A DNA stretch of 64,000 nt from Haloplasma contractile SSD-17B (GTDB lineage Bacteria > Bacillota_I > Bacilli_A > Haloplasmatales > Haloplasmataceae): positions 310,001 to 374,000 of the forward strand of contig NZ_AFNU02000002.1 in the NCBI RefSeq assembly GCF_000215935.2, given 5' to 3'. Positions 32,307 through 58,501 of the stretch are shown piece by piece. A program made the position numbers and the translations under genes. Each line of letters opens with the position of its first letter. The stretch's first letter is position 1. The notes under the pieces were generated by a model. The model was not told the DNA's origin. It did no database searches and was given only the letters and a program-made list of their open reading frames with translations.

Positions 32307-34108
32307 TTATTCTTCTGTTCTTAAGTAGGGATATTTGCCGCGTTCTACATAACTAGTATGTAAATACTTTTTAGAAGTTTCGGATAACGGTTTTCCTAAG
32401 AACTCATCATATATTTTTTTGACTCCTGGATTCTTATGTGATTGACGTATTTCCATATCTTTATCAACATTAAATAAGGAATCAGCGCGATTATGACGGT
32501 AGTCTAAAGATATTTTTTTATGATTTTTACTGCCTAGTATTGGTTGACCTCCACCACCAACACAACCTCCTGGGCATGCCATCACTTCCATGTAATCAAT
32601 TTTCTTTTCACCACTTTTGTGGCTATCCAAAGCTTTTTTAGCATTTCCCGTTCCATGTGCAATTGCAATAGATAACGTTTTTCCATCTAGTTGAACTTCA
32701 CCATACTTCAGCCCACTTTGCGATCTAGTATCAGAATAATCTGGTATATCCATTTCTTCACCCGTCTTAAAATAATGTGCTGTTCTAAGGGCCGCTTCAA
32801 AAAGTCCTCCAGTTGCGCCAAAAATTGTTCCTGCTCCACTGAATTGATCAAACGGTTCATCATACTTAGTATCTGGTAGATTTGCAAAGTCGATTCCAGC
32901 TTGACGAATCATTCGTGCTAATTCTCTTGTTGTTAACACAAAGTCCACATTTCTGTATCCATCAGATACCATTTCAGGTCTAGCAGCTTCATATTCTTTA
33001 GCAGTACAAGGCATAATTGCAACATTTATTATGTTTTCTGGATTTATTTCATATTTTTGTGCATACCATGTTTTGGTCAATGCGCCACACATTTCATGAG
33101 GTGATTTACATGATGATAAATTTGGTAAAAACTCCGGATAAAAATGCTCAGCAAATTTCACCCATCCAGGACAACACGAGGATAACAAGGGTAGTTTTTC
33201 CGTATTGTTAATACGATCTAATAACTCACTTGCTTCTTCCATAATCGTAAGATCTGCGGTTACATCTGTAGCAAATACTCGATCAAATCCTAGTCTCTTC
33301 AGGGATGTCACTAGTTTTCCTCTTACTAATGAACCAATCTCCATTCCAAACTCCTCACCTAATGTAACTTGAATTGAAGGAGCAGTCTGCGCTACTACAT
33401 GCTTGGTCGGATCAGATAGTACATCCCATACATCTGATATGGCTTCTTTTTCTGTTAGGGAGGCAGTTGGGCACGCTATAACACACTGCCCACACATAAT
33501 ACAGCTAACTTCTATCAAATCCTTTTTAAATGCAGGTGCAATTATTGTATCTAAGCCTCTGTTTAATGGAGAGTAAACATGGCATTCTTGAATTTTATTA
33601 CAGATTGCCTGGCACCGTCTACAGTTAATGCACTTGTTATAATCGCGTTCTATTGCTGGATTATCATTGTGAAAGCCATAATCATACATCTCACCCGTGT
33701 ATGGGATATCTCTCACACCTAGTTGATCAGCAATATTTTGCAGTTCACAATTTAAGTTTCTTTTACAAGTCAAACATTCCCTGTGATGGTTTGAGAGAAA
33801 TAGCGTTACTGCGGTCTTTCTTGACCGTCTTACTCGTTCTGTGTTCGTTTTGATTATCAGTCCTTCACGTACTGGATAAACACAGGATGCTTGTAACGCT
33901 CCGATGCCTTCTATTTCTACCAAACAGACTCGACATACACCAATTTCATTGATTTCCTTTAAATAACATAGACTTGGAATGTCGATATGTACCATACGTG
34001 CAGCCTCTAAGATGCTAACCCCTTCTGGTACCTCATAATCATTACCATTTATCTCTATCTTAACTCGTTTTCTAATTCTTTTTCTTTTTGTTCTGTAATG
34101 TTTTCCAC
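32307..34108 (-). CDS. hydA: [FeFe] hydrogenase catalytic subunit, start and body in different frames
   Basis: Makes H2 from protons in the cytoplasm. Ordered clusters: N-terminal [2Fe-2S] domain (SLCYLKEINEIGVCRVC), His-ligated cluster (HHRECLTCKRNLNC), two [4Fe-4S] sets (CINCRRCQAIC, CIMCGQCVIAC), then the H-cluster motifs SSCCPGW, MPCTAKEYE and MACPGGCVGGGGQP. The ATG-initiated frame starts at 33995, but that removes the start of the [2Fe-2S] domain. The same frame stays open upstream and encodes VKIEINGNDYEVPEGVSIL, typical family sequence, with no start codon. The good start (GTG at 34108, AGAGGTGA upstream) is one frame off and hits TAG at 34057-34055. A -1 shift in the A-rich stretch around 34075-34092 joins them into a ~600-residue protein. 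Third gene of the operon, 14 bases after its partner. Confidence 0.85.
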
Positions 34109-34122
34109 TTTAAATCACCTCT

Positions 34123-36018
34123 CTATCGCTTATATATCGCATCAACAGGACACTTTGGAATACAAGCGCCACATTTTATACAAATTTCCTGATCAATTAC
34201 ATATGGTGGTTTTTTTCTCTCACCTGATATTGCACTCACCGGACATATTCTAGCACAGATTCCACAAGCAATACATTTTTCTTCTGATATAACGACTTGT
34301 AAGAGGGCATTACATACACCGGCAGGACACTTTTTATCATTTATATGGGATAGGTATTCTTCCTTAAAATATTTTAATGTGCTTAAGATTGGATTTGGAG
34401 CGGTTTGACCAAGCCCACACATTGAGGAGTCTTTTATATCATAGCAAAGTTCTTCCATGATTTTTAAGTCTTCTTCTGACGCCTTACCTTCTGTTATTTT
34501 ATTTAAAAATTCTAATAAACGTTTTGTACCGACACGACATGGTACACACTTTCCACAAGATTCATCTTGCGCAAACTCAAGGTAGAACCGTGAAATGTCT
34601 ACCATGCAGTCTGTTTCGTCCATAACAATTAAACCACCGGATCCCATCATTGAACCAATATCTGATAATGATTTAAAATCGATTGGCGTATCAATTAGAG
34701 ACGCTGGTATACAGCCACCAGATGGTCCACCAGTTTGAACCGCCTTAAATTCCTTCTGATCATGGATTCCACCACCAATATCATAGATGATCGTTCGTAA
34801 CGTTGTTCCCATTGGTACCTCTATTAAACCTGTATTCTTAATTTGACCAGCAAGTGCAAAGACCTTTGTTCCTTTACTATCTTCTGATCCAATTTGATTA
34901 TACCAATTTGAACCCTTTTCTAATATAATCGGAATATTGGCATATGTTTCTACATTATTATTTAACGTCGGCTTTTCCCATAGTCCTGCTTCTGCTGGAA
35001 ATGGAGGTCGCGGTCTAGGTTCACCACGCATACCCATAACAGATTGTAATAATGCAGTTTCCTCTCCACACACAAACGCTCCCGCTCCAAGTCGGATTCC
35101 GAGTTCAAAATCAACTCCACTATTTAATATACTTTTACCAAGGAAACCGGCTTTTTTCGCTTGATCAATCGCAATTTCTAGACGTTCAACTGCTATTGGG
35201 TATTCTGCTCTTACATATACATAACCCTGTTTCGCACCAATTGTATAACCTGCAATAATCATGGCCTCTATGATACTATGAGGATCTCCCTCTAGAATTG
35301 AACGGTCCATAAAGGCTCCTGGATCTCCTTCATCAGCATTACAAATAATAAACTTATCTTCATTTTCGTATGATTTAGCAAACTGCCACTTCTTACCCGT
35401 TGGAAATCCTCCGCCACCTCTCCCCCTTAATCCTGATTCACTGATCTCATTGATAATATCATCAGGCGATTTTTTTTCAGTTAAGATTTTTGATAATGAC
35501 ATATATCCGTTTATAGCTATATATTCAAATATGTCTTCTGGATTGATTACGCCACAATTTCTTAGCGCTATTCTTTGTTGGTCATTAAAGAATTCTAAAT
35601 CATCAATCCTTTTATTGTTTCCCTCATCTTTCCCCTTATAAAGTAGTTTTTCAACTATTTTTCCTTTGCCTATATGTTCATCAATTATGTCATCTACATC
35701 TTCAACATCTACCTTACAATAGAACGTTCGGTCTGGATGTATAACAATAATAGGTCCAAGTTTACAAAAACCAAAACAACCTGTTTTAAATACTTTAACT
35801 TTTTCTTTAATATTTCGCTTTTCAATTTCTTTATCTAACTGCTTAAGAATTTTTTGACCTTTCGATGCAGTACATCCAGTTCCCGAGCAAACAAGAATAT
35901 GGTATTTATTTATTTCACCTTCTACATCGTTAGAGTTTAAACGCATTTCAATCTTTTTATAAGCTTCTTCTTTTAATTCATTTAATCTCTCTATGCTATC
36001 AATTTTATTTAATTCCAT
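34123..36018 (-). CDS. hydB: NuoF-like NADH-binding subunit of bifurcating hydrogenase
   Basis: 631 residues behind AGGAGGTG. Order: N-terminal thioredoxin-like [2Fe-2S] domain (CSGTGCTASKG and CFGFCKLGP); NuoF core with FMN loop GRGGGGFPTGKKW and NAD-site Glu-rich stretch; [4Fe-4S] motif ESCGKCVPCRVGT; and a C-terminal double ferredoxin domain (CIACGICARICP, CIKCGACIPKCP). This is the HydB/HndC architecture that oxidises NADH (or NADPH) and passes electrons to HydA, in bifurcating enzymes together with reduced ferredoxin. It lies between the NuoE-like and HydA genes with 14-15-base gaps. Confidence 0.94.
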   Translation of the reverse strand: MELNKIDSIERLNELKEEAYKKIEMRLNSNDVEGEINKYHILVCSGTGCTASKGQKILKQLDKEIEKRNIKEKVKVFKTGCFGFCKLGPIIVIHPDRTFYCKVDVEDVDDIIDEHIGKGKIVEKLLYKGKDEGNNKRIDDLEFFNDQQRIALRNCGVINPEDIFEYIAINGYMSLSKILTEKKSPDDIINEISESGLRGRGGGGFPTGKKWQFAKSYENEDKFIICNADEGDPGAFMDRSILEGDPHSIIEAMIIAGYTIGAKQGYVYVRAEYPIAVERLEIAIDQAKKAGFLGKSILNSGVDFELGIRLGAGAFVCGEETALLQSVMGMRGEPRPRPPFPAEAGLWEKPTLNNNVETYANIPIILEKGSNWYNQIGSEDSKGTKVFALAGQIKNTGLIEVPMGTTLRTIIYDIGGGIHDQKEFKAVQTGGPSGGCIPASLIDTPIDFKSLSDIGSMMGSGGLIVMDETDCMVDISRFYLEFAQDESCGKCVPCRVGTKRLLEFLNKITEGKASEEDLKIMEELCYDIKDSSMCGLGQTAPNPILSTLKYFKEEYLSHINDKKCPAGVCNALLQVVISEEKCIACGICARICPVSAISGERKKPPYVIDQEICIKCGACIPKCPVDAIYKR

Positions 36019-36032
36019 ATGAACACCTCCTT

Positions 36033-36545
36033 TTATTTTTCTTCGATTACTTCTTCAGTTTTTTTAGCATATTGATGGATTAAGGATGGAATATCAGATG
36101 GTGACAGTCTACCGTGAACGTCCTCATTAATCATGACAACTGGTGCAAGTCCACAAGCACCTATACACCTTGTAGCCTTAAGAGTAAACTGCTGATCCAG
36201 AGTTGTTTCTCCAACGTCAAGACTTAATTCTTCTTTAATTGCATCAAGTACATCCTGTGCCCCTTTTACATAACAGGCTGTACCAAGACATACACCAATT
36301 GTATACTTACCTTGTTTTTCCTGTGAAAATAGTGAATAGAAGCTGACTACACCATTCACAGTAGAAATCGGTATATCTAGTTTTAATGATATATGAGACT
36401 GGACATGTTCAGGTAAATAACCAAATATATCTTGTGCTTTCTTAAGTATTCGAATTAACGTTCCTTGTTCATTGCCTTGTTCTTCAATTATTACATCTAG
36501 TTTTTTAAAGTTTTCTTGCTCGGATTCTTTTATGTATGTCTCCAC
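36033..36545 (-). CDS. hydC: NuoE-like [2Fe-2S] subunit of bifurcating hydrogenase
   Basis: 170 residues from the GTG at 36545, which has GTAGGTGT upstream; the open frame continues to 36617 without a ribosome site. Thioredoxin-like [2Fe-2S] ferredoxin with the four ligands in CLGTAC and CIGACGLAP. N-terminal helical bundle includes YLPEHVQSHIS. The subunit transfers electrons within the HydABC trimer. First gene of the operon. Confidence 0.93.
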   Translation of the reverse strand: METYIKESEQENFKKLDVIIEEQGNEQGTLIRILKKAQDIFGYLPEHVQSHISLKLDIPISTVNGVVSFYSLFSQEKQGKYTIGVCLGTACYVKGAQDVLDAIKEELSLDVGETTLDQQFTLKATRCIGACGLAPVVMINEDVHGRLSPSDIPSLIHQYAKKTEEVIEEK

Positions 36546-36865
36546 AGCTATAACACCTACCTTAACTATTTTATGAATATAAAGTATAGTATTTGGAATT
36601 AAATTAGACATATGCAATTTTTTACATAATCTCTACAAGACAACTAAATAAAATACATTACATTAAGTTAATTTCAGATAAGCCTTTATTAAAATCTCTA
36701 AAAGGTTATATTTAGTCACTATTTATATCAATGGTCTGGTGTGATTTAATTTAAAAATTTATAATTTACTCATCTTAATAGCGTAGTTTCTTAGTAGGTA
36801 GCATATAATCACCAATTTTCTACAATACTCTACCTCTATTATGTCATTTTCTGTGTTTTCAGAAT

Positions 36866-52661: not shown

Positions 52662-53624
52662 TCATGACCTTCTAAATAGGTTAATGATGAAATTTATGAC
52701 ATTAAACGTTTCCTTTATAATTTGTTTAAATGTAGTGTAGATAGATGTAAAAATAGAGCCAATCGTCTTATACAATAATTTTATGATTGCAAAAATCCAA
52801 AGAAAAGGATATTTAAAGAACTTATCATACAGTTTACAGATCGCCTTATAACACATTCTGAAAACATATATAAAAAATCTATATGTCTGAGAAAATACAT
52901 ATTTTACTGCTTTGTATACTGAGATAACTACCTGCTTTATGGGCGTATAAAGCAATAAGATCAGTTGCCAAATTGGATTAAATATAATTTTGAATGCTTT
53001 AGAAATAATCTGATATACTAGCGTTATGAGATTCCAGATTTGCTCAAAAGATTTTTGTAGAAACACATGCACTTTTTCGATTATAATCCTTAGTATGTAG
53101 TAGATATAGCGAACTAATTTAAAAACTGGAACAAAAATAAAATGAATGAATCGAATAAATTGACGATATAGTATCTTTAAACCAATAACTAGTAATCGTA
53201 GTAATTGTTGAATCCATTTAAATATAAACTTAAAAGCAGTTATAAACGGTCTGAATAAGTACCTTATAAATCTAAAGAATGGATTAAAGATGCTCTTTAT
53301 CCCTTCTATGATCTTTCCCCATACTTTCACAAATAGTTCAGAAATAAATCGTATACCGCTTACTACAAGTCTTACTATAGGCTTCAAAATATCATTAATT
53401 TTACTTAGAAAATTAATAAACCTTTTTAACATTTCACCCAAGTAGTTAACAATCTGCTTATAGACTCTACTAAAAACATCAAATAATTGTTTAACTCCTT
53501 CATATAACGTAATTAGAATAAAGGCAATCGGGTAGACAACTACTTTAAAAGGAACTAGTAAAACGTGTTGAATAAACGATTTTTCATTTTTATTGTCTTT
53601 TGGATTGTTTTGTTGTTCATGCAT
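52662..53624 (-). CDS. Giant amphipathic protein of 25 eleven-residue units
   Basis: 320 residues behind CAAGGGGGCATT. After a polar N terminus (1-16) the whole chain is hydrophobic, aromatic and basic, with very few acidic residues. From residue 47 to 320 it divides without gaps into 11-residue units. Position 4 of every unit is V, I, L, F or Y (residues 50, 61, 72 ... 314), and position 11 is hydrophobic in nearly all units from residue 79 on. Lys/Arg recur between. An 11-residue period is that of amphipathic 11/3 helices lying on membranes or lipid droplets (perilipin, synuclein type). It is not a standard multi-pass layout because no run exceeds ~15 residues without a charge, though insertion cannot be excluded. 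No bacterial family was recognised. Confidence 0.85.
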   Translation of the reverse strand: MHEQQNNPKDNKNEKSFIQHVLLVPFKVVVYPIAFILITLYEGVKQLFDVFSRVYKQIVNYLGEMLKRFINFLSKINDILKPIVRLVVSGIRFISELFVKVWGKIIEGIKSIFNPFFRFIRYLFRPFITAFKFIFKWIQQLLRLLVIGLKILYRQFIRFIHFIFVPVFKLVRYIYYILRIIIEKVHVFLQKSFEQIWNLITLVYQIISKAFKIIFNPIWQLILLLYTPIKQVVISVYKAVKYVFSQTYRFFIYVFRMCYKAICKLYDKFFKYPFLWIFAIIKLLYKTIGSIFTSIYTTFKQIIKETFNVINFIINLFRRS

Positions 53625-53670
53625 TATTATAATGCCCCCTTGTTTTGAATCAATATAAAGTATATAACTT
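53596..53670 (-). repeat. Gene-start repeat, copy A
   Basis: Contains the ribosome site and first nine codons (MHEQQNNPK) of the 11-mer repeat protein gene. About 75 bases that recur at 55402-55475 with few differences. Confidence 0.85.
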
Positions 53671-54157: not shown

Positions 54158-54818
54158 TTAATCATTGCTAAGTAAAAATAATCGATTATATTGTTCAAAC
54201 TTAGAGTAATAAATATCCTTATAACTCTTAATACAAAAGTATTTATTGAACAACTCTTTCCATTCCTCCGTAGTTTGATTCCATAAAAATAGGCCATCAT
54301 CTAGAAAATTATCATCTATAATTTTAATATTCCATTCTTCAATTTGTTTATCAGAAATGAAAGGATTGAGTTTAACAAGTATCTTACCATGTGGTTTTAC
54401 TATACGTTTAATTTCTTTAAGAACTTCAGTTGTATCTGTAGGTATTAAATTATCAATTATATTGGAGAGCACAATAGCATCAACTGACTGATCAGTAATA
54501 TAATGTAAAACTTTCCACCCCTCCTACAGTAAAAGTAAATGTTCCCTTTCCTGTATCTTGAAAAATTTCATTAGCAACTCGTATGCCTTCATGTGAAATA
54601 TCGATTCCAATATGTACTTTTGTTCCTCTTAGAAAACATTTATATAACCAGACTCCATTGCCACATCCAAAATCAAGTATAGTATTCGACCCTTGACAAA
54701 GCCAATCTAAACCATAGTCTACATCATCCTGTCCAATACTTTTTGATGTAATCATTTTACCATTTTCTTTTTTAAAAATTTCATTCCAATAATTTGTATT
54801 TCTACTATATGTTAACAT
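54158..54818 (-). pseudogene. SAM-dependent methyltransferase with a frameshift
   Basis: Two consecutive frames give one class I methyltransferase. The first part (54818 to 54492), behind GGGAGTG, carries TILDFGCGNGVWLYKC (SAM loop) and HIGIDIS. The second part (54472 to 54158, open upstream to about 54510) continues with VDAIVLSNIIDNLIPTD and VKPHGKILVKLNPF. The join lies in GGAAAGTTTT (54507-54516): removing one A gives an uninterrupted ~219-residue protein. So either a recent single-base insertion or a sequence error. Confidence 0.75.
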
Positions 54819-56925: not shown

Positions 56926-57215
56926 TTATCGCTTGATCATGTTTATATCCCTTCTATATTTAAACATTTTATTTTTTAGTTATTTACAGATATTTACATT
57001 ATAGCATACATATTCATGTTACTAAAAACTATCTATTATGTAGTTAACGATGAATTTCTAGGTGAAGGTACTCAATAAAAAACACAATTTATTTAAAGTC
57101 GTTTCTCTGATAACTTTTTGTTTTTATGTAATAAAAGATAGGATTCATTATTAAACTCCTTCTAATGTCATATACATTATAAACACACAATGATGCATTG
57201 GGAGGAAATATAAAA

Positions 57216-58112
57216 ATGAAAGTAATTAGTATACTAAATAGTAAAGGTGGGGTCGGTAAAACAACCATAACTGCAAACCTAGGGGCTCAGCTAGCAAAAC
57301 TAGGTTATTACACACTACTGATTGATACAGACCCTCAATCAAATTTGACATTTTCATTCCTAGACGATGAGATTTATCATAAAAAGTATTTGCGTACAAA
57401 CACGATTTATAATTCATTTGATACCTATATTGTTCATAATAGAACAACACCACTAAGGCAGCTGATTATCAAGCCTGATAAAATTAATCAAGAAGTAAAT
57501 GATAACCTTGATTTACTATGCTCTCATGTTGAACTAAACGATATTATGAATAATCTAATGACAGTTCATAACAAAAAGAAAACATTTCATCTATCAGAAT
57601 TGAATCTTCAGTCTATATTGAGAACTGCAGTTAAACAACTAAAAAATAAATATGACTTTATATTAATTGATTGCTCACCTGGCTTGAACTTAATGACACA
57701 AAATGCTATTGTTGCGAGTGACTATTACACCATACCTGTTAAATTAGATTTCCTATCTACCGATGGTCTATTTCAACTAACTCAGCAAATTAAAAAACTG
57801 AAGACTAATTATAATCGCAGTGCTTTAAATGATCAGTTCAGAAGACATAATTGTATTGATCCTAAATTACTTGGTGTGGTTACAAACATGGTTAATATGC
57901 GAAACAATGAACTGATCAGTACACAACAAGAGTATCTAAATAAAATTGCTAATCATTTTCCGGTCTTTGATACAAAATTACGCTTAAACAGTTCTTATTA
58001 TAAAGCGCCTCAAACGTTAATGCCAGTTGTAATAAACAATGGAGATAAGAAAATTCAAGAAGAGCTCATAGCCTTAACGGACGAGATATTAGAGAAGGTG
58101 GGATTGAAATGA
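57216..58112 (+). CDS. parA: ParA/Soj-type partition ATPase
   Basis: 298 residues from the ATG at 57216 (GGGAGG 9 bases upstream; the frame extends to a TTG at 57198 that overlaps the ribosome site). Deviant Walker A KGGVGKTT near residue 11, Walker A' LLIDTDPQSN, Walker B FILIDCSPGL. Type Ib/Soj-like length without an N-terminal DNA-binding extension. It moves DNA or protein cargo over the nucleoid in cycles of ATP binding. No ParB gene follows; instead a small SAP-like protein overlaps its end by 4 bases. Confidence 0.9.
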   Translation: MKVISILNSKGGVGKTTITANLGAQLAKLGYYTLLIDTDPQSNLTFSFLDDEIYHKKYLRTNTIYNSFDTYIVHNRTTPLRQLIIKPDKINQEVNDNLDLLCSHVELNDIMNNLMTVHNKKKTFHLSELNLQSILRTAVKQLKNKYDFILIDCSPGLNLMTQNAIVASDYYTIPVKLDFLSTDGLFQLTQQIKKLKTNYNRSALNDQFRRHNCIDPKLLGVVTNMVNMRNNELISTQQEYLNKIANHFPVFDTKLRLNSSYYKAPQTLMPVVINNGDKKIQEELIALTDEILEKVGLK

Positions 58113-58501
58113 AAGATCACTATCTAAAAATGACCGGGATTATAATGAAGTCTTTAACAAAATTAACACCTAAACAGTATCAACAATTATTAGACGGTAA
58201 AGGAAGGCTTGTATTCGAAGAATTAGAACAAAAGCAAAAGCAAGAATATACAAGTAAGACAGATCCTACATTATTAGATCAATATAAAGAGACATTAACA
58301 TCATTTGAGTCTAAAAATGAAGCATATAGGTACTTAATGAAATTCAAGAAAAAGCAATTAACAGACTTGGCAAAACACCTTGATATACGTGTTTTATCAA
58401 ATGATACGAAAGCAAAATTATCAAAAAAAATAGTAGATAATCAGGTTGGTATAAAATTAAGAAAAAAGTTGTTTGATACTATTAAAGCATCTGATAAATA
58501 G
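58109..58501 (+). CDS. Small SAP-like partner of ParA
   Basis: 130 residues; ATGA overlap with parA shows translational coupling. Lys-rich. Residues ~88-125 (QLTDLAKHLDIRVLSND then TKAKLSKKIVDN) match the SAP/Rho-N-like helix-extended loop-helix that binds DNA. The N-terminal ~80 residues are helical with a Gln/Lys-rich segment that could form the ParA-contact region. Likely the centromere-binding or adaptor partner in a two-gene partition unit of plasmid or integrative-element origin. Confidence 0.7.
   Translation: MKDHYLKMTGIIMKSLTKLTPKQYQQLLDGKGRLVFEELEQKQKQEYTSKTDPTLLDQYKETLTSFESKNEAYRYLMKFKKKQLTDLAKHLDIRVLSNDTKAKLSKKIVDNQVGIKLRKKLFDTIKASDK

Follow-up and report, generated by a model that had tools for sequence, protein, structure and literature searches.

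The best-known giant amphipathic helices are those of lipid-coating proteins in eukaryotes. For the synuclein, perilipin and apoA-I helices, hydrophobic moments of 0.26-0.39 and aromatic contents of up to 6.5% have been tabulated (PMC5889406 Table 1). The gene P0001, located in the window (the whole stretch of 64,000 nucleotides of Haloplasma contractile DNA analysed here), encodes a protein that resembles perilipin 4, alpha-synuclein and apoA-I in its very long amphipathic helix with an 11-residue register (best period 3.64, slightly off 11/3) and apoA-I also in its punctuation by prolines. Unlike these proteins, however, P0001 combines a mean hydrophobicity of 0.77 and a moment of 0.53 with 22% aromatic and 4% acidic residues, is strongly basic and carries an N-terminal anchor. 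The moderate hydrophobicity with few aromatics that marks lipid coats was not found in P0001, and the Pfam models of the synuclein, perilipin and apolipoprotein families gave no sequence match. The analogy with synuclein, perilipin and apolipoproteins drawn in the original prediction therefore stands for length and period but not for hydrophobicity, moment, and aromatic and acidic content, which are far off.

The same prediction had known of no bacterial family with such a layout, but the tape-measure proteins of phages and tailocins share both the periodicity and the hydrophobicity. Their period of about 3.60-3.67, mean hydrophobicity of 0.5-0.9, moment of 0.4-0.57 and length-variable middle are all similar to those of the P0001 family, whose hydrophobic helical period likewise falls near 3.6-3.7, whereas the tape-measure proteins found are 600-1100 aa long, are poor in K/R and have neither the YPIAF anchor nor the KYP block described below. 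In Pfam and NCBIfam, no family covers P0001. One of the seven members of its family has a weak Pfam match to TMEM169 (PF15052; residues 12-73, E 0.001), but its 19.7 bits fall short of the gathering score of 27 and the other six members gave no match.

The gene and its parts were read as follows.
52662..53624, minus strand: whole gene P0001, 320 aa plus stop codon (ORF with ATG start, homologues, purifying selection within the family).
53634..53641, minus strand: Shine-Dalgarno-like AAGGGGGC (AAGGGGG), read directly, with the ATG 10 nt downstream.
53499..53576, minus strand: hydrophobic anchor at the N-terminus, spanning residues 17-42 around VLLVPFKVVVYPIAFILITLYE (Kyte-Doolittle, alignment invariants).
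52833..53498, minus strand: amphipathic core of period 3.64 (residues 43-264), whose six internal prolines all lie on one edge of the hydrophobic face.
52665..52832, minus strand: C-terminal block (residues 265-320; LYDKFFKYP...), conserved among the relatives but not clear in G193, the most divergent one.
A scan for promoters and terminators gave no signals above those of shuffled sequences.

When the chain is cut into 11-residue blocks from residue 47, as in the original prediction, the two counts claimed there prove exact: position 4 is occupied by Ile (nine), Phe (seven), Tyr (six), Val (two) or Leu (one) in all 25 blocks, the last of which has 10 residues, and of the 22 blocks from residue 79 onward, 21 have a hydrophobic residue at position 11. 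The basic, acid-poor composition was also recovered (47 K+R against 13 D+E, net charge +34), with F+W+Y accounting for 20% of the residues. Fourier analysis of the hydrophobicity gave a single, dominant peak at 3.65 residues (98.6 degrees) with a power of 50.9, which was reached by none of 5000 shuffled sequences (mean maximum 6.4, highest 13.95), and the autocorrelation at lag 11 was 0.44 compared to a shuffle standard deviation of 0.058. A finer scan placed the period at 3.643 (51/14 or 40/11). At the strict 11/3 period originally proposed the power is only about half (24 vs 51), and the signal at lag 11 is equalled by those at lags 18, 29 and 40, indicating that the "25 undecads" are a convenient approximation; P0001 has the straight alpha-helical amphipathic period of 51/14 or 40/11, not a strict 11/3 undecad. 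This period is unbroken over about 300 residues in P0001, and all seven members of the family share it (3.64; Fourier power 28-70, shuffle means 5-6). On helical wheels of the family, large hydrophobic residues reach fractions of 0.86-0.97 across about 120 degrees with K/R centred opposite, and P0001 has no K/R at all within this face.

Of the predicted unbroken helix of ~270 residues, the continuous amphipathic phase was borne out; the chain is not uniform, however, given the six internal prolines (residues 82, 115, 126, 166, 217 and 228) and the separate anchor at residues 17-42. The phase passes through the prolines without a loop, and their spacing is mostly 11, 33, 40 or 51 residues, near whole numbers of helical turns, with conserved hFxPVY motifs every 33-51 residues. 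Across all members, the 30 internal prolines lie on one edge of the hydrophobic face (mean -99 degrees, R 0.96), a placement that differs from random polar positions in each protein (p 0.0006-0.04), the members being related to each other. As a feature unique to the family, this placement is weakened by the prolines of tape-measure proteins, which lean less strongly to the same side (mean -135 degrees, R 0.58); because of this and of the relatedness of the members, it is in part general to helices.

Homologues were sought by sequence and by profile. A single-sequence search of the class returned two short stand-alone relatives apart from tape-measure proteins, and the remaining relatives were found by profiles built from these first finds, a three-member profile being needed to reach named genomes; single-sequence scans of genome contigs and viral contigs gave no relative. 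The search yielded seven members, namely P0001 (320 aa), G460 (419 aa), G171 (245 aa), G396 (245 aa), G337/UBA3566 (248 aa), zrk7 (254 aa) and G193 (261 aa), with no paralogue of P0001 in its own genome (34-contig, 3.40 Mb assembly, with the window on contig 2) and no member among the plasmids and viral contigs searched. All seven carry an N-terminal YP[IV]AF anchor followed by a basic core of period 3.64, and K27, Y31, P32, A34, F35, I38 and Y41 of the anchor are invariant. Leave-one-out profiles gave 67-197 bits for whole proteins against 21-35 for reversed sequences, and 29-48 bits against 3-7 for the N-terminal 45 residues alone. Six members also have a C-terminal [KR]YP block (24-44 bits in leave-one-out, 3-12 reversed), which is missing from G193 (20 vs 16 bits reversed), the weakest member, whose C-terminus is not clearly homologous. 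The only pair that could be tested for selection, G171 and G396, gave a dN/dS of 0.26, in agreement with purifying selection. As judged from these profile scores and the dN/dS value, the giant-amphipathic-helix proteins form a real, conserved, small and previously unnamed family.

Members of the family vary in length without losing the register of the hydrophobic face. The distance between the YP of the anchor and that of the tail block is 241 residues in P0001 and 340 in G460, its closest relative, a difference of exactly 99, or 9 × 11, and the two proteins share their N-terminal offset (32) and tail length (47). In the other block-bearing members this distance is 187 or 194 residues, 7 apart. 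The N-terminal anchor, the C-terminal block, the in-phase prolines, the length variation and the occurrence in wall-less lineages are new here, none of them having been seen in the original prediction. Separately, an 841-aa protein of an Acholeplasmataceae-like genome of family f9 (G143, L082:2549-5074) has a basic amphipathic N-terminal part of 180 aa with ISIFLWDNLLKYP and LAPVGRLL motifs and scored 52 bits against the family profile (24 reversed), but it differs in the absence of the YPIAF anchor and continues into a large C-terminal part without a Pfam match. This joined part may hint at a partner function.

The cores of the family have a mean hydrophobicity of 0.69-0.87, an 18-residue moment of 0.47-0.54, 15-19% K+R, 3-5% D+E and 18-23% aromatics. 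Their net charge is +12 to +17 per 100 residues, and such a composition fits an anionic bilayer better than a soluble coiled coil. Kyte-Doolittle analysis identified the N-terminal segment as the only membrane-spanning-like segment common to all members; in P0001, nine of the ten 19-residue windows above 1.6 start within residues 17-42. AlphaFold2 gave a near-continuous helix, interrupted by short breaks, both for P0001 (residues 9-112, 117-123, 125-214 and 216-319; pLDDT 65) and for a relative (3-133 and 138-253; pLDDT 75), in models built without a membrane and by a method for which a single helix is the default for such sequences, and the low pTM (0.24-0.27) leaves the packing undefined. 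Foldseek with the predicted structure gave no PDB match and one viral match that is meaningless.

The reading we favour, with a probability of roughly 0.58, is that P0001 is a stand-alone giant amphipathic helix lying flat in the membrane. The very long, amphipathic and basic membrane-surface helix of the original prediction is thus retained as the best explanation, and no match to a polytopic membrane family was found. In this model, the N-terminal anchor would be inserted in the cytoplasmic membrane. The 200-380 residues that follow it would form a straight helix, punctuated by prolines and running within the cytoplasmic leaflet parallel to its plane, with an expected length of about 45 nm in P0001 and 35-60 nm across the family. 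F/I/V/L would be buried among the acyl chains and K/R would face the anionic head groups; the cytoplasmic side is suggested by the basic face together with the positive-inside rule. Such a helix may stiffen a wall-less membrane in its plane or give it shape, although a specifically mechanical role is proposed here as a tentative and rather doubtful part of this reading. Compared with the eukaryotic coats, this bacterial family is more hydrophobic, anchored and length-variable and has so far been found almost only in lineages described as wall-less, and it offers a simple, testable protein for the stiffening or bending of a naked bacterial membrane.

The same hydrophobic face could also pack against other helices. 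A homo- or hetero-oligomeric helix bundle, tube or filament, in which the wide hydrophobic face packs as in tape-measure proteins and alpha-helical barrels and the length serves as an assembly ruler, is consistent with a period and hydrophobic moment equal to those of tape-measure segments, with profile matches that include designed helical bundles and barrels besides tape-measure proteins, and with constant ends around a variable middle. We nevertheless consider it unlikely, given that about 20% aromatics, nearly no acidic residues and +12-17 charges per 100 residues would create a strongly repulsive surface, whereas most tape-measure segments are K/R-poor and range from neutral to acidic; moreover, the conserved hydrophobic anchor suggests a place in the membrane and no partner genes were found.

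A multi-span or re-entrant membrane protein, such as a channel or transporter accessory, built of short helices broken at the prolines, is quite improbable. The high overall hydrophobicity and the regularly conserved Pro motifs would fit this proposal, as would a second region in G460 with many Kyte-Doolittle-19 windows above 1.6 (zrk7 also has one further hydrophobic region). However, one face is charged every 4-7 residues, the amphipathic phase crosses the prolines without a loop, and neither Pfam, NCBIfam nor PDB gave a match to a membrane protein. Past the anchor, charge-free stretches of at least 15 residues are nearly absent (one in P0001 and one in G460), which makes further transmembrane spans unlikely.

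Little credence can be given to a perilipin- or apolipoprotein-like coat of lipid droplets or lipid bodies. The long 11-residue-like periodicity and proline punctuation of P0001 do recall apoA-I, but its moment and aromatic content are far above those of long natural coats (PMC5889406 Table 1), which speaks against a weakly, reversibly binding coat of lipid bodies. A hydrophobic anchor is more typical of residence in a bilayer, and these organisms have no lipid-body biology shown here; for the binding to lipid bodies suggested originally, no evidence at all was obtained.

That P0001 is a remnant or domesticated phage tape-measure protein would explain its tblastn and PHROG matches to such proteins (E about 1e-5 to 1e-9), yet we regard this as extremely improbable. 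Across the tblastn, PHROG and PDB profile searches, all of which pointed to tape-measure proteins, the lowest E was 1.8e-16, obtained with the forward seven-member profile, a value that is not strictly comparable to those of the reversed profile because the latter has fewer rows; the proteins and families matched were 80alpha gp57 (6v8i), FtbJ (9j1k), CD1366 (8v3w) and PHROG 58, 305, 1272, 4200 and 5493. Reversal keeps composition and helical phase but makes homology impossible. Reversed P0001 matched the same PHROGs as well as or better than the forward sequence (4.2e-10 vs 1.3e-9), a reversed four-member profile matched FtbJ (1.3e-11) and gp57 (4.7e-8), and with local tape-measure proteins another reversed profile reached 50 bits, compared to 54.7 for the forward one. 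Column and block shuffles, with maxima of 35 and 32 bits compared to the 66 and 55 observed, would on their own suggest homology because they blur the phase that reversal retains. Collinear homology beyond the periodicity was therefore not found in comparisons in which reversed sequences and profiles score comparably. In addition, the charge is opposite (most periodic segments of tape-measure proteins are neutral to acidic, and their K/R content is 1-8%, reaching 11-16% in a few), the family has conserved ends of its own, and no phage tail gene or tail module was found in the neighbourhoods of members that were read. Given the reversed controls and the opposite charge, we did not file the family under tape-measure proteins; the similarity is a resemblance and no demonstration of descent, and the two may rest on one physical principle, a long helix with a hydrophobic face. 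No relevant paper came up in literature searches for 11-residue repeats of tape-measure proteins or for bacterial membrane helices of the hendecad type. The reversed-sequence controls expose that helical periodicity alone can yield strong tape-measure matches (E below 1e-9), and as reversed helical sequences reach E 1e-10 to 1e-11, it is unsafe to annotate a long amphipathic protein as a tape-measure protein from profile matches alone. Finally, a chance ORF of AT-rich DNA, although the local GC content of 27% does favour frames rich in F/I/K/N/Y, is refuted by homologues in three bacterial families and is further opposed by the purifying selection in one pair of members, the ribosome-binding site and the length of 320 aa, leaving a practically negligible probability.

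The carriers of the family are patchily distributed: one of eight genomes of the family of P0001's own host, three of 88 in f9 and three of 49 in f12, which argues against an essential structural role; many wall-less relatives lack the gene. The family f9, a large group of genomes of 0.3-0.9 Mb that includes a "Phytoplasma sp." MAG by identical sequence, appears to be Acholeplasmataceae, and f12 probably belongs to Izemoplasmatales. Evenly drawn class and phylum samples contained no clear member outside the families in which members were found. No PF00905 transpeptidase was detected in the six other carrier genomes; three walled-type relatives of the class have one. H. contractile has been described as lacking a wall although it carries peptidoglycan genes (PMC7301438), and the dcw cluster of its published re-assembly lies at Contig3:198625-229704 (PMC3855842). 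Its genome contains four PBP-type transpeptidases and eight Mur-ligase-type matches, with the Mur ligases and PBPs clustering on contig 3 at around 228-236 kb, and a simple "no wall genes" reading of the carriers fails accordingly. The association with a wall-less way of life is no more than suggestive, as f9 and f12 were searched because members had surfaced there (an ascertainment bias).

An extended form of the favoured membrane-lying helix, a length-tuned in-plane "membrane beam" limited to wall-less bacteria that would take over part of the mechanical role of the wall, is an unlikely proposal; it would account for a constant anchor and tail around a middle changing in whole helical turns and for prolines that might impose a consistent in-plane bend, and in Haloplasma the beam would possibly act in the contractile protrusions. 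A correlation of the family with expansion of MreB was also considered. H. contractile has seven MreB_Mbl matches on contigs C9, C15 and C26, several in tandem clusters, and the same test gave 0 to 9 for the other genomes of its family, but the sampled f9 genomes have none and no link was found.

No neighbour gene is common to the distant members in the neighbourhoods read, so no process is indicated. By reading of the translations, P0001 is next to MutS-like, lipoprotein and split methyltransferase genes, the zrk7 member to a repeat protein and an oxidoreductase, the G337 member to a nucleotidase, the G193 member to ribF-rpsO and a permease, and the G460 member to a von Willebrand-type lipoprotein and a phosphoglycerate-mutase-type gene. 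The methyltransferase-like gene adjoining P0001 (54158-54818, minus strand) is divided into two ORFs (54158-54472 and 54492-54818) and is probably a pseudogene or a frameshift. In G171, two near-identical XRE-type regulator/membrane proteins (L083:5175-6374 and L083:11106-12308), a recent duplication, are located at a distance on both sides of the family member. Elsewhere in the window, a ParA-like gene followed by a small gene (57198-58501, plus strand) resembles a partition cassette of the plasmid type, here on a large chromosomal contig, and a trio of NuoE-, NuoF- and hydrogenase-like genes (32307-36617, minus strand) resembles an electron-bifurcating [FeFe]-hydrogenase.
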